Source: Christensenella massiliensis (GTDB lineage: Bacteria > Bacillota > Clostridia > Christensenellales > Christensenellaceae). Taken from it: a DNA stretch of 64,000 nucleotides. A program made the position numbers and the translations under genes. This document shows positions 14,778 to 19,105 of the stretch, piece after piece. Numbering within the stretch: position 1 is the first letter of the stretch; each line of letters starts with the position of its first letter. Under the pieces are notes generated by a model, which was given only the letters and a program-made list of their open reading frames with translations, was not told the DNA's origin and did not search any database. The DNA is taken from NCBI GenBank assembly GCA_900155415.1, contig LT700187.1:1488001-1552000 (forward strand), read 5' to 3'.

Positions 14778-14787
14778 TGAGACCATA

Positions 14788-14815
14788 AAAACAGGCGCGC
14801 GCGCCTGTTTTTTTT
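14788..14815 (+). terminator. Intrinsic terminator after zapA
   Basis: AAACAGGCGC and GCGCCTGTTT are perfectly complementary, followed by a run of eight T residues. It separates the housekeeping block from the accessory surface genes. Confidence 0.9.
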
Positions 14816-15046
14816 GTGCCCCGAACGGCGGAAAACGGCAGGCCGCGCGGGAAAGGAAACCGGAAAACCGCCTCAAACGGGAAAGAATCTCCATAAGTGA
14901 ATCACCTAAAAGCCATATTTTGCATGATTTTGTAAGTACATATACAAAAAAACGTGCCCTTCACAGGAGGAGCGCGTAATTCTTATAAAGTATGCCTTTT
15001 GAAACAAAAGAGCAAAAATTATTATTATGAGAAGGAGAATTTCAAA

Positions 15047-16894
15047 ATGAGAAGAAAAAAATTCTTAGCTGTTTTACTGGCGGCGCTTTTAGTGTTGGCG
15101 GCTCTACCAACTATGGCGTCCGCAGCTCCGGTATACGATGTAGTCGGAGTAGAGGTGGTGGACGGAACAGACGGCTGGACGCCTGTTACGGCGCCTGAAG
15201 CCGGACAAAAGCTGACGGCAAATATTTATACGACTAACCCGGATGAACCGGCGATCGGTTCCTATCCGGTGAATGAAAATGCGCGGTATAAGTGGTATTA
15301 CAAGGAAAGCCCGGATACCGTGCTTGGTACCGAAGCGGTTTATACCGCAACGGCAGATAATACTAACAAAACACTGTGCGTGGAGGTGAGCGTAAACGGT
15401 TACAACGGCAAAGCGGTATGGGAAGCGCCCGGAACGGTGCGGTATAATGTAACCGGAGTAGAAGTGGTGGATGGAACAGATGGCTATACGCCCGTTGTCA
15501 TTCCGAAGGACGACCAGAAATTGATTGCGAACATTAAGACGGATGACCCGGACAACGCGGTGATTGGTTCCTATCCGGCGAATGAAAACGCGCAGTATAA
15601 GTGGTATTACAAGGAAAGCCCGGATACCGTGCTTGGTACTGAAGCGGTTTATACGGCCACAACGGATAACTTTGGCAAAACGCTATGCGTGGAAGTGAGC
15701 GTAAACGGTTATACCGGAACGGCTGTATGGGAAGCGCCTAACACGGTCGGAGATAAAGATAATTATGATATAACCGGGATAGAGGTAGTAGATGGAACGG
15801 ACGGCTATACGTCTGTTACTATTCCGAAATCCGGTCAGAAACTTCTTGCGAATATTAAGACGGGTGATCCGGACAACGCGGTGATCGGTTCCTATCCGGC
15901 GAATGAAAACGCGCAGTATAAGTGGTATTACAAGGAAAGCCCGGATACCGTGCTTGGTACCGGAGCATATTACACCGTAACGACAGATAATACTAACAAA
16001 ACGCTGTGCGTGGAGGTGAGCGTAAACGGTTACAACGGCAAAGCGGTATGGGAAGCATCTGCGAAAGTGCCCTATAACGTGACCGGAGTAGAGGTGGTGG
16101 ACGGAACGGACGGCTATACGCCTGTTACGGCGCCTCAAAATGGACAGAAGCTGACCGCAAACATTAAGACGGACGATCCGGACAACGCGGTGATCGGTTC
16201 CTATCCGGCGAATGAAAACGCGCAGTATAAGTGGTATTACAAGGAAAGCCCGGATGCTGTGCTTGGTACCGAAGCAACTTATACTGTAACGGAAGACAAT
16301 GTTGATAAGGTACTGTGTGTGGAAGTGAGTGTAAATGGTTATACCGGAACGGCTGTATGGAAAGCGGATTCTGTTGTAACAAAGCCGGTTTATAGGATTC
16401 TCGGCGCGGCGGTAGTAGAAAAAGACGGTGTTACACCTGTAACGGTTCCACAGGTGGGAGATATCCTGACGGCTAATATCATTACGAGCGATTTTGAAGA
16501 TCCGGTAATCGGGGCGTATCCGATCAATAAGAATGCAAAATACAGATGGCATTATGAAGATAGTGACAACGTACTTGGCACAGATCCGGTTTATACGGTA
16601 ACAAGCGATAATGTCGGCAAAACGTTGTGTGTGGAAGTAAGTGTAGCAGGATACAGCGGAAGCGCTGTATGGACGGCTAAAGGAGCGGTAGAAGAAGTGT
16701 CGGTCGTAATTCCGGGCGATGTGAACAAAGATGGTCTTGTTGACCTTCTGGATATGATCCAGATCAATAACGTGATAAACGAAGAAGCGGAATTTGATGC
16801 CGATGCGTTTAAAGCGGCAGATATCAATGCAGATGGCCTGCTCGATCTTCTGGATATGATTCAGGTCAATAACATAATAAACAGCAATATCTAA
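15047..16894 (+). CDS. Secreted protein: five Ig-like repeats plus C-terminal type I dockerin
   Basis: A 615-residue exported protein. The ATG at 15047 has AGAAGGAGA ahead of it and opens a signal peptide (RRKKFLAVLLAALLVLAALP, cleavage near MASAA). Five tandem modules of 103-107 residues follow, each with GVEVVDGTDGYTPV, YKWYYKESPDTVLGT and a D-N-x-x-K-T-L-C-V-E-V-S-V strand; repeats 1-4 are almost identical, the fifth is divergent. They resemble the bacterial Ig-like modules with a YxWY core. The last 59 residues are a dockerin with two calcium-binding F-hand repeats, GDVNKDGLVDLLDMIQ (from residue 557) and ADINADGLLDLLDMIQ (from about 591). No enzymatic domain is visible. Dockerins bind cohesins; the next gene carries a cohesin-like domain, so this protein may be held on the cell surface by it. 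Repeats have one conserved Cys each. Confidence 0.85.
   Translation: MRRKKFLAVLLAALLVLAALPTMASAAPVYDVVGVEVVDGTDGWTPVTAPEAGQKLTANIYTTNPDEPAIGSYPVNENARYKWYYKESPDTVLGTEAVYTATADNTNKTLCVEVSVNGYNGKAVWEAPGTVRYNVTGVEVVDGTDGYTPVVIPKDDQKLIANIKTDDPDNAVIGSYPANENAQYKWYYKESPDTVLGTEAVYTATTDNFGKTLCVEVSVNGYTGTAVWEAPNTVGDKDNYDITGIEVVDGTDGYTSVTIPKSGQKLLANIKTGDPDNAVIGSYPANENAQYKWYYKESPDTVLGTGAYYTVTTDNTNKTLCVEVSVNGYNGKAVWEASAKVPYNVTGVEVVDGTDGYTPVTAPQNGQKLTANIKTDDPDNAVIGSYPANENAQYKWYYKESPDAVLGTEATYTVTEDNVDKVLCVEVSVNGYTGTAVWKADSVVTKPVYRILGAAVVEKDGVTPVTVPQVGDILTANIITSDFEDPVIGAYPINKNAKYRWHYEDSDNVLGTDPVYTVTSDNVGKTLCVEVSVAGYSGSAVWTAKGAVEEVSVVIPGDVNKDGLVDLLDMIQINNVINEEAEFDADAFKAADINADGLLDLLDMIQVNNIINSNI
15140..16690 (+). 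repeat. Five direct repeats of 309-321 bp encoding the Ig-like modules
   Basis: The GGAGTAGAGGTGGTGG-type block recurs at 15146, 15455, 15776, 16085 and, diverged, 16403 (spacings 309, 321, 309, 318). The internal block beginning GACAACGCGG at 15551, 15872 and 16181 runs for some 80 bases with almost no change, pointing to recent duplication or gene conversion among repeats 2-4. Confidence 0.93.
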
Positions 16895-16924
16895 AAAGCA
16901 GTAGGAAATTTGGAGGTAAATAAC

Positions 16925-17596
16925 ATGAAGAAAAAAACGATATTGTCGATTGCGTTGGCAGCCATTCTCGTGTTGGCTTTCGCGACGACAGGCATGGCGG
17001 CAGATGTTCCGGTAAAAGTAACGATTGACAATTCAAATCCAAATCCGGGAGATACGGTAAATATCACCGTATCCTGTACAGGAAATGATATAGGTGGATT
17101 TGAGGGAAAAGTCACAACGAGCGGCTTGAAATATATAAGTGATGATGGCCAATTCAGCAATGAAACGCAGCTGAGAGCGATGGGGAGCGGTAGCGTGACC
17201 TATACCTATACGGTAGAGGGACAGTCGGGAGATGCGATTAAATTTTCGCTGTCTGATGTAAAGGTTGGAGATGCAGCTGGTAGCTCTTGGCATAATCCGG
17301 TTGGAGACTTTGCCGTAAGCGGCACGGTAGAAGCGGCAGTAAATCCGCAGCCGAGCACGCAGCCGAGCGAAGACCTGCAGCCGTCCGAGGACCCGTCCGA
17401 GCCGACGCAGCAGCCGTCTGAGCCCACGGGCGAGCCGAGCGCACAGCCGTCCGATTCCCAGAACGCTGACGAACTGGACGACGTTCCGAAGACCGGCGAC
17501 GCAACAACGGACCTTTGGGTGCTCGCAGTAGTTGGCATCGCAGCAGCCGCGACAGTGGCGGTCGTTGCAGGCAAAAAAGTGTTTTCTCATAAGTAA
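16925..17596 (+). CDS. Cell-wall-anchored protein with cohesin-like domain and VPKTG sorting signal
   Basis: A 223-residue surface protein. ATG at 16925 has GGAGG eight bases upstream. Residues 1-26 are a signal peptide ending MAADV. Residues about 28-138 form a single beta-sandwich domain with cohesin/CBM-like features: NPNPGDTVNITVS near the start, NDIGGFEGKVTTSGLKYIS, and a closing strand FAVSGTVEA. A Pro/Ser/Glu linker (about 140-180, repeated QPSE units) leads to VPKTG at 187-191, a hydrophobic segment and the basic tail KKVFSHK: a sortase sorting signal. A class B sortase lies 115 bases downstream. The cohesin assignment is by pattern and by the dockerin neighbour, not by alignment; another CBM-like sandwich is possible. 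Confidence 0.78.
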   Translation: MKKKTILSIALAAILVLAFATTGMAADVPVKVTIDNSNPNPGDTVNITVSCTGNDIGGFEGKVTTSGLKYISDDGQFSNETQLRAMGSGSVTYTYTVEGQSGDAIKFSLSDVKVGDAAGSSWHNPVGDFAVSGTVEAAVNPQPSTQPSEDLQPSEDPSEPTQQPSEPTGEPSAQPSDSQNADELDDVPKTGDATTDLWVLAVVGIAAAATVAVVAGKKVFSHK

Positions 17597-17642
17597 TAAC
17601 TTTATCCATACAATGACGCACAAGTAACCTATGAGCAGTAAG

Positions 17643-17684
17643 AACGCGGCGGGCGGGGATCACTCCCCGCCCTGCGGCGTTTTT
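17643..17684 (+). terminator. Intrinsic terminator between wall protein and sortase
   Basis: GGGCGGGG pairs with CCCCGCCC around a six-base loop, extended by AACGC/GCGTT, followed by T5. It probably reduces sortase transcription relative to its abundant substrate. Confidence 0.85.
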
Positions 17685-17710
17685 GCGGGAAGAACGGAAA
17701 AGGAAGACCA

Positions 17711-18595
17711 ATGGAGCGAAACAATAACGGATATCATAGCAATACGGGCGGCCGGCAAAGGCGCAGGGCGCAGGCCTCCCCCGCAAAGAAAAAACGGCCG
17801 GGCGGGAAAAAGAGGCTGTGGATCGTGATCATGGCAGCCGCAGCCGCGGCGGTATGCATCATCCTTGCCGCCGCCCTGCCGATGTCGCAGCCCGCGCCCC
17901 GGCCCGTGCACGTTACGACGGAAACGGCGAGCGTCAGCACGCCCGCGCCGAGCGCGGCGCCAACGGGAAAGAAGATGCTTCCCGCTATGCAGACGCTGTA
18001 TGAGCAGAACAGCGATATTGCGGGCTGGATCACGATAGAGGGGACGGAGGTGGATTATCCGGTCATGTATACGCCGGAGGACGGAGAGTACTACCTGTAC
18101 CGGAATTTTGAAAAGGAGGACGACCCGACGAAGGAGGGGTGCCTTTTCATCGATAAAAACTGCACGGTAGAGCCGCGCAGCACGAATCTTCTGATCCACG
18201 GGCACAACATGAAGAACGGAACGATGTTCCACACGCTCATCAGCTATCAGGACGAGGCGTTTTATAAGGAGCACCCGACGATACGCTACAGCACGCTCTA
18301 TGAGGAAGAGGAATACGAGATCGCGGCGGTATTCCTGTCGAAGATATACAAAAAGAGCGAAACGGACGTATTCAAATTCTATCAGTTCTATGACGCGGAG
18401 ACGGAAGAAGAATTCGATGAATTTGTGCGGAGCATCAAGGAGCAGGAGCTGTATGAAACGGGCGTGACGCCGGAATACGGCGACGAGCTCATCACGCTGA
18501 CGACGTGCGAATATTCGCAGGAGAACGGCAGAATGGTTGTCGTAGCGCGCAAGGCGGAAAAGGAAGCGCAGGCTGCGGAAACGGCGGCAGGCTGA
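17711..18595 (+). CDS. srtB: Class B sortase
   Basis: A 294-residue membrane-anchored transpeptidase. A basic N-terminus precedes a single membrane segment (about residues 36-57), then a Ser/Thr/Pro linker, then the sortase barrel. The order SDIAGWITIEGTEVDYPV, then LIHGHNMKNGTMF with catalytic His165, the long helical insert typical of class B (about 215-245), LTTCE with nucleophile Cys266, and Arg274 in NGRMVVVAR identify the family. It would cleave the neighbouring VPKTG signal between Thr and Gly and attach the protein to peptidoglycan. Clostridial class B sortases are known to use PxTG-type signals rather than the NPQTN of staphylococcal SrtB, which agrees with the neighbour. Confidence 0.92.
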   Translation: MERNNNGYHSNTGGRQRRRAQASPAKKKRPGGKKRLWIVIMAAAAAAVCIILAAALPMSQPAPRPVHVTTETASVSTPAPSAAPTGKKMLPAMQTLYEQNSDIAGWITIEGTEVDYPVMYTPEDGEYYLYRNFEKEDDPTKEGCLFIDKNCTVEPRSTNLLIHGHNMKNGTMFHTLISYQDEAFYKEHPTIRYSTLYEEEEYEIAAVFLSKIYKKSETDVFKFYQFYDAETEEEFDEFVRSIKEQELYETGVTPEYGDELITLTTCEYSQENGRMVVVARKAEKEAQAAETAAG

Positions 18596-18610
18596 ACGGA
18601 GGGAAGGGAT

Positions 18611-19009
18611 ATGCGGATCAAGGCGACGACGGTCTACGCTGTAAGGATATTGGGGTTCATGATGCGTCGGCCCGGGGTCACGACGGTAAGCGAACTCGTC
18701 CGGGGCGTCGGCATCACGCACCAGTACTGTATGAAGATATTGAACGAGCTGCGGCACGCGGGGCTGGTCGTATCGGAGCAGGGCTGCAAGGGCGGCTTTC
18801 GGCTGGCGGCGGAGGACGGGATCATCACCCTGTATGACGTCGTGGCGCTGTTCGAGCCGGAAAAGCAAAGTGAGAAAGGCTGGAAAGCCGCGGAGGGAGA
18901 CCTTTTCCACAGCCATCTTCTGAAAATATGGGAGGAAAGCGTGGAAAGGCTGAAAGGGCTGAAGCTGAAAGAGATCTATGCGGGCTGTTCCGCAGAAAAA
19001 ACATTTTGA
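18611..19009 (+). CDS. Rrf2-family transcriptional regulator
   Basis: A 132-residue winged-helix protein: MRIKATTVYAVRILGFMM start, recognition region ITHQYCMKILNELRHAGLV and the Rrf2 signature EQGCKGGFRLA. Rrf2 members include iron-sulfur sensors such as IscR and NsrR, but the three-Cys cluster loop is not present in its normal spacing; single Cys residues occur at QYC, GC and AGC. It starts 15 bases after the sortase stop with a GGAGGGAAGG site, so it is probably co-transcribed and may regulate the surface block. Target and signal are unknown. Confidence 0.85.
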   Translation: MRIKATTVYAVRILGFMMRRPGVTTVSELVRGVGITHQYCMKILNELRHAGLVVSEQGCKGGFRLAAEDGIITLYDVVALFEPEKQSEKGWKAAEGDLFHSHLLKIWEESVERLKGLKLKEIYAGCSAEKTF

Positions 19010-19017
19010 TTTGACCG

Positions 19018-19057
19018 CGGCGCTTTTTATGTGCAGATATAAAAAGCGCCGTTTTTA
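19018..19057 (+). terminator. Intrinsic terminator after the Rrf2 gene
   Basis: CGGCGCTTTTTAT pairs with ATAAAAAGCGCCG around an eight-base loop, then T5. It closes the accessory surface block. Confidence 0.9.
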
Positions 19058-19105
19058 TTTGGAAAGATTTCTGGACGGCATATTTTATGATATAATAACC
19101 ATGCT

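Follow-up and report, generated by a model that had tools for sequence, protein, structure and literature searches.

A probable cohesin-dockerin-sortase surface-display cassette in Christensenella massiliensis, built on a compact cohesin missed by Pfam

The 64,000-nucleotide window analysed here (contig LT700187.1, positions 1,488,001 to 1,552,000) belongs to the genome of Christensenella massiliensis, a single contig of 2,560,186 bases, and carries between zapA and mutS2 three consecutive plus-strand genes encoding, in this order, an immunoglobulin (Ig)-repeat protein ending in a dockerin (gene 1), a VPKTG wall protein (gene 2) and a sortase (gene 3). We consider it likely that these genes form a self-contained surface-display cassette, in which a cohesin on a wall anchor holds the Ig-repeat dockerin protein encoded by its neighbor as a private 1:1 pair. 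The sortase would link the VPKTG protein to peptidoglycan, the single cohesin of gene 2 would hold the gene 1 dockerin noncovalently, and one adhesin-like filament would be mounted per wall anchor. A preliminary description of this DNA, made from its letters, had proposed the three genes with these domains, including a two-repeat dockerin at the end of gene 1 and a cohesin-like sandwich in gene 2. All three open reading frames (ORFs) lie where it placed them, and their matches in Pfam, NCBIfam and the PDB, together with the predicted structure and profile comparisons of gene 2, bear these assignments out.

Gene 1 (15047..16894, plus strand; window positions, as below unless another sequence is named) encodes a secreted protein of 615 amino acids, composed of a signal peptide, five Ig/PKD-like repeats of about 95 amino acids and a C-terminal dockerin, with matches to the Pfam models PKD_3, Ig_7 and Dockerin_1 above cut-off. 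Dockerin_1 (PF00404) covers residues 556-612 with 32 bits for a cut-off of 22.9 (E = 1.5e-7 in the Pfam scan and 6.6e-9 in the genome-wide search). The domain (about 16712..16891, plus strand) contains two calcium-binding loop-helix repeats, which, with the Pfam match, identify a type I dockerin; both loops, DVNKDGLVDLLD and DINADGLLDLLD, are complete by sequence and are accompanied by flanking helices, and three helices appear in the predicted model. The closest solved dockerin, 5lxv_B, comes from a crystal structure that also contains a cohesin (5lxv_A/C), in turn one of the best fold matches of gene 2.

Gene 2 (16925..17596, plus strand), supported by its ORF, its predicted fold and profile-profile homology, encodes a single-cohesin protein of 223 amino acids with a predicted wall anchor. 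A signal peptide is followed by a sandwich domain of about 110 amino acids (17000..17350, plus strand), a Pro/Thr/Ser linker and a sorting signal (17486..17593, plus strand) made of VPKTGD, a hydrophobic segment and a basic tail, where the LPXTG model also matches; the motif (V/M)PKTGD is invariant among relatives. Sequence searches of gene 2 and its family in Pfam, NCBIfam and the PDB did not retrieve any cohesin, and the cohesin identity of the domain surfaced by fold and profile-profile comparison only. The AlphaFold2 model, obtained from an alignment of eight rows, is a nine-strand jelly-roll beta-sandwich of the cohesin type with a predicted local distance difference test score (pLDDT) of 92.3 and a predicted TM-score (pTM) of 0.83; our structure alignments, of 8 and 14 rows, drew on the retrieved related loci only. 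Foldseek ranks a fibrillar adhesin first in the PDB, through its CLIPPER domain (9ifr, E = 4.3e-5), after which almost all matches are cohesins, among them those of Clostridium cellulolyticum (1g1k, with the maximum TM-score by query, 0.75), Ruminococcus flavefaciens (5lxv, 5n5p), Clostridium perfringens (2jh2) and Archaeoglobus (2xdh). The domain shares 7-18% identity with its fold matches and has about 30 residues fewer than type I cohesins, which, given the predicted fold, points to a compact and divergent branch of cohesins.

Profile-profile comparison relates this branch to recognised cohesins. Against 22 cohesins that Pfam recognises in the same order, the gene 2 profile reached hhalign probabilities of 92.2% and 95.1% in the two directions. 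Among the controls, Ig-repeat profiles gave 0.2% and 8.2%, the reversed profile gave 1.6%, and none of 60 column shuffles exceeded 0.5%. Together, the predicted structure, the profile-profile comparison and the position of the gene support the identification of the gene 2 sandwich as a cohesin.

Gene 3 (17711..18595, plus strand) matches the Pfam Sortase model (E = 3.8e-12), its best PDB match is Sortase B (E = 6.2e-34), and the catalytic His, Cys and Arg motifs are present (LIHGHN, LTTCEYS and VVVAR). The class B assignment of the preliminary description stands as far as the best solved relatives and the catalytic motifs are concerned, but the protein scores slightly under the cut-off of the NCBIfam class B model (TIGR03064, 143 bits versus 153.75). 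Judged by sequence, therefore, gene 3 encodes a class B-like sortase closest to SrtB, which we presume to anchor the gene 2 cohesin protein.

The association of the three genes is conserved in relatives. We surveyed six Christensenella genomes with the dockerin profile and the gene 2 protein as queries, and the numbers of dockerins and cohesins agreed in each of them (2/2, 2/2, 1/1, 0/0, 1/1 and 1/1), the congener without dockerins being also without the cohesin. Each of the seven dockerin genes of the genus is directly followed by a cohesin-like gene, and srtB comes next after the cohesin gene in 5/5 cassettes clear of contig ends, since the two C. hongkongensis cassettes run into contig ends and are left out of the srtB count. 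C. intestinihominis is also among the species with related loci, and, outside the genus, both Candidatus Parachristensenella and a Bacilli metagenome-assembled genome (MAG) carry the trio. The cargo in the genus is either Ig-like or without assignment, with no enzyme among the cargo proteins scanned, in line with the structural or adhesive cargo that had been expected. One group of Christensenella dockerin proteins (L026, L030 and L032) has repeats without a convincing Pfam assignment. In the Bacilli MAG, the cohesin protein also has FIVAR repeats, and a second dockerin gene is located after srtB (L051:7985-9721), so that two dockerin proteins may share one cohesin there.

In three congeners (G003, G004 and G005), zapA and mutS2 are contiguous, with a gap of roughly 90-150 bases versus about 4.3 kb in the C. 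massiliensis window. The site is therefore empty in these species and the block (14778..19105, plus strand) was inserted, as the preliminary description had supposed from the gene order; the cassettes of other species occupy different genomic places. C. massiliensis carries a second cassette (locus L025, at about 1212064-1216700 of its contig), which shares with the first a tract of 98.1% DNA identity (17314..19022, plus strand) comprising the linker, the sorting signal, the sortase and an Rrf2-family regulator. In contrast to this tract, the cohesins of the two cassettes are 36% identical and the dockerins 29%, and the cargo is different; the identity breaks where the cohesin domain ends on its C-terminal side. 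Read most simply, these sequences suggest that the mount was gene-converted or duplicated and that the recognition half had a separate origin. The half with the anchor, the sortase and the regulator would remain constant, while the cohesin and the dockerin cargo would be exchanged as a unit; selection for a cohesin-dockerin match would hold these two together, and each cassette would form its own private 1:1 pair.

Several observations weigh against this display model. The Pfam Cohesin model (PF00963) matches neither gene 2 nor any other sequence in the whole C. massiliensis genome, and it matches 2/10 relatives weakly (best E = 0.011). One calcium loop of the dockerin is degenerate in most relatives, suggesting that calcium dependence might vary from species to species; in both C. 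massiliensis dockerins, both loops are nearly or fully intact. In favor of the model, the distances between dockerins track those between cohesins across ten pairs (r = 0.79, Mantel p = 0.00025; r = 0.75 without the Bacilli pair) more closely than those between sortases (r = 0.41, seven pairs), although this co-variation is confounded by shared species history, which was not removed. When the dockerin and the cohesin were modelled as the read-through fusion of the two same-frame genes, which are separated by a TAA, with the two domains in separate rows of the alignment, both domains folded, but the pTM of 0.56 is near the value expected of two unrelated domains and came without inspectable coordinates or predicted aligned error (PAE), a result that weighs neither for nor against docking. 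Finally, C. massiliensis has two more sortases outside the cassettes (G000:C1:1103393-1103887 and G000:C1:65613-66122). Its genome also encodes several other LPXTG-like proteins.

These points bear on three other explanations. The gene 2 sandwich could be an adhesin or carbohydrate-binding module (CBM)-like domain with the cohesin fold only, the genes being neighbors as surface proteins and the dockerin binding something else or stabilising the C-terminus of its own protein. The CLIPPER domain as the top Foldseek match, the silence of the Pfam cohesin model and a fused model that speaks neither for nor against docking all agree with this possibility, which we nevertheless regard as unlikely: nearly all the remaining best fold matches are cohesins, the profile-profile homology to Pfam cohesins came with clean controls, and the dockerins of the genus are never found apart from a gene 2-type domain. 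Moreover, there are dockerin genes in other Christensenellales that are directly followed by a gene for a membrane-anchored cohesin, which Pfam recognises and which has a transmembrane tail.

It is still less probable that the cohesin is a hub for dockerins encoded elsewhere, with the cassette as the remnant or the seed of a cellulosome-like complex. This idea draws on a MAG of the same family, G006, with 31 dockerins and 15 compact cohesins and with a glycoside hydrolase family 5 (GH5) cellulase among its dockerin cargo. C. massiliensis, however, has just two dockerins and two compact cohesins, each pair adjacent, and the finding of no enzyme in the genus cargo scanned also argues against it. 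That the contact between dockerin and cohesin serves a cell-cell or bacterium-host use, instead of retaining the product of the neighboring gene, seems very improbable, as the adhesin-like cargo speaks for it in an indirect way, while the genes for the two proteins form one group with that of their own sortase. The display of gene 1 on the anchored gene 2 protein is thus the reading that we retain.

The compact cohesin family is rare, as it was found in 2/391 genomes across the class and in 15/297 genomes of the order, several of these being weak matches. G006, a Christensenellaceae MAG (L029, L033-L037, L098, L173-L192), contains both single anchored cohesin proteins and proteins with two to four cohesins that also bear dockerins, and its dockerin cargo includes, besides the GH5 cellulase, BspA-type leucine-rich repeats, CAP and NlpC/P60, yet no Pfam cohesin match was found genome-wide. 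The cohesin-plus-dockerin proteins have the plan of adaptor scaffoldins, a resemblance that supports the cohesin reading of the compact domain. We put forward with some reserve, as a possibility that falls a little short of even chances, that Christensenellaceae use an unrecognised family of compact cohesins as a general display platform, in which swappable recognition cassettes of cargo, dockerin and cohesin, joined by recombination to a constant sortase-anchor-regulator module, would present variable adhesins. In one relative, these parts would have expanded into an extensive cohesin-dockerin network that Pfam does not see, including adaptor scaffoldins and a cellulase. In the wider order, three loci (L152, L153 and L154) encode SpoIID or Amidase_3 proteins with a terminal dockerin and, directly downstream of them, a cohesin that Pfam recognises; this arrangement suggests that cell-wall enzymes are tethered there through dockerin and cohesin.

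The cassette is not a cellulosome. C. massiliensis has two single compact cohesins, with no Pfam cohesin and no multi-cohesin scaffoldin, and the only two dockerins in its genome are both on Ig-repeat proteins, not on glycoside hydrolases. The absence of a multi-cohesin scaffoldin, pointed out in the preliminary description, therefore holds for C. massiliensis but not for the wider family, given the two- to four-cohesin dockerin proteins of G006.

In the ScaE-type system of Ruminococcus flavefaciens, a single cohesin, attached to the wall through a sortase, receives a dockerin protein. The C. massiliensis arrangement, as we infer it from the genes, is similar, but ScaE carries a multi-cohesin scaffoldin with enzymes, whereas here a compact cohesin missed by Pfam would receive one neighbor-encoded Ig-repeat protein and has its own sortase. 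Sortase anchoring of Ruminococcus scaffoldins has been described (PMC11557425). The mucinolysome of the gut bacterium Limousia likewise consists of cohesin-dockerin complexes, with a sortase motif on a scaffoldin (PMC12997984); it differs in having multi-cohesin scaffoldins and many dockerin-bearing carbohydrate-active enzymes, detected by Pfam, instead of 1:1 pairs without enzymes. In Clostridium perfringens, cohesins and dockerins are found on hydrolases and pair enzymes with each other (PMC12997984). This non-cellulosomal, pairwise use by glycoside hydrolases (NagJ and others) resembles the C. massiliensis case, and gene 2 has the NagJ cohesin (2jh2) among its close fold matches, but the C. 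massiliensis parts are placed on a wall anchor and on non-enzymatic cargo. The pairs of other Christensenellales show a similar gene order, with the gene for an anchored single cohesin directly after the dockerin gene, and differ in their Pfam-recognised cohesins, in a transmembrane tail instead of a sorting signal and in a cargo that is often SpoIID or Amidase_3. In the literature searched, no paper united cohesin, dockerin and 'class B sortase', and the papers naming Christensenella and dockerin did so in other contexts, as far as their titles and abstracts indicate.

Cohesin-dockerin pairs are known chiefly from enzyme complexes, and Christensenella is a genus of the gut that has attracted study through its association with leanness and its heritability; the literature searched yielded little on its surface. 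The C. massiliensis pairs seem instead to carry individual adhesin-like proteins that are not enzymes. The parts are ordinary and their use unusual, most likely in a minimal 1:1 cohesin-dockerin-sortase display cassette on a cohesin branch unseen by Pfam. Because compact cohesins are invisible to the Pfam cohesin model, surveys based on this model would label such genomes as cohesin-free, even G006 with its 31 dockerins. Being small, soluble and cognate by position, the pairs make binding and specificity directly testable.

Downstream of the sortase, the block ends as previously described, with its own Rrf2-family regulator (18611..19009, plus strand; Pfam), found only in the two C. massiliensis cassettes, followed by a 16-pair intrinsic terminator (19017..19052, plus strand). 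No clear inverted repeats were seen flanking the cassette, and no resolvase/invertase gene was found in the C. massiliensis window. A small serine resolvase/invertase gene is located just upstream of three cassettes (L025:2075-2881, L027:6122-6856 and L028:3868-4509).

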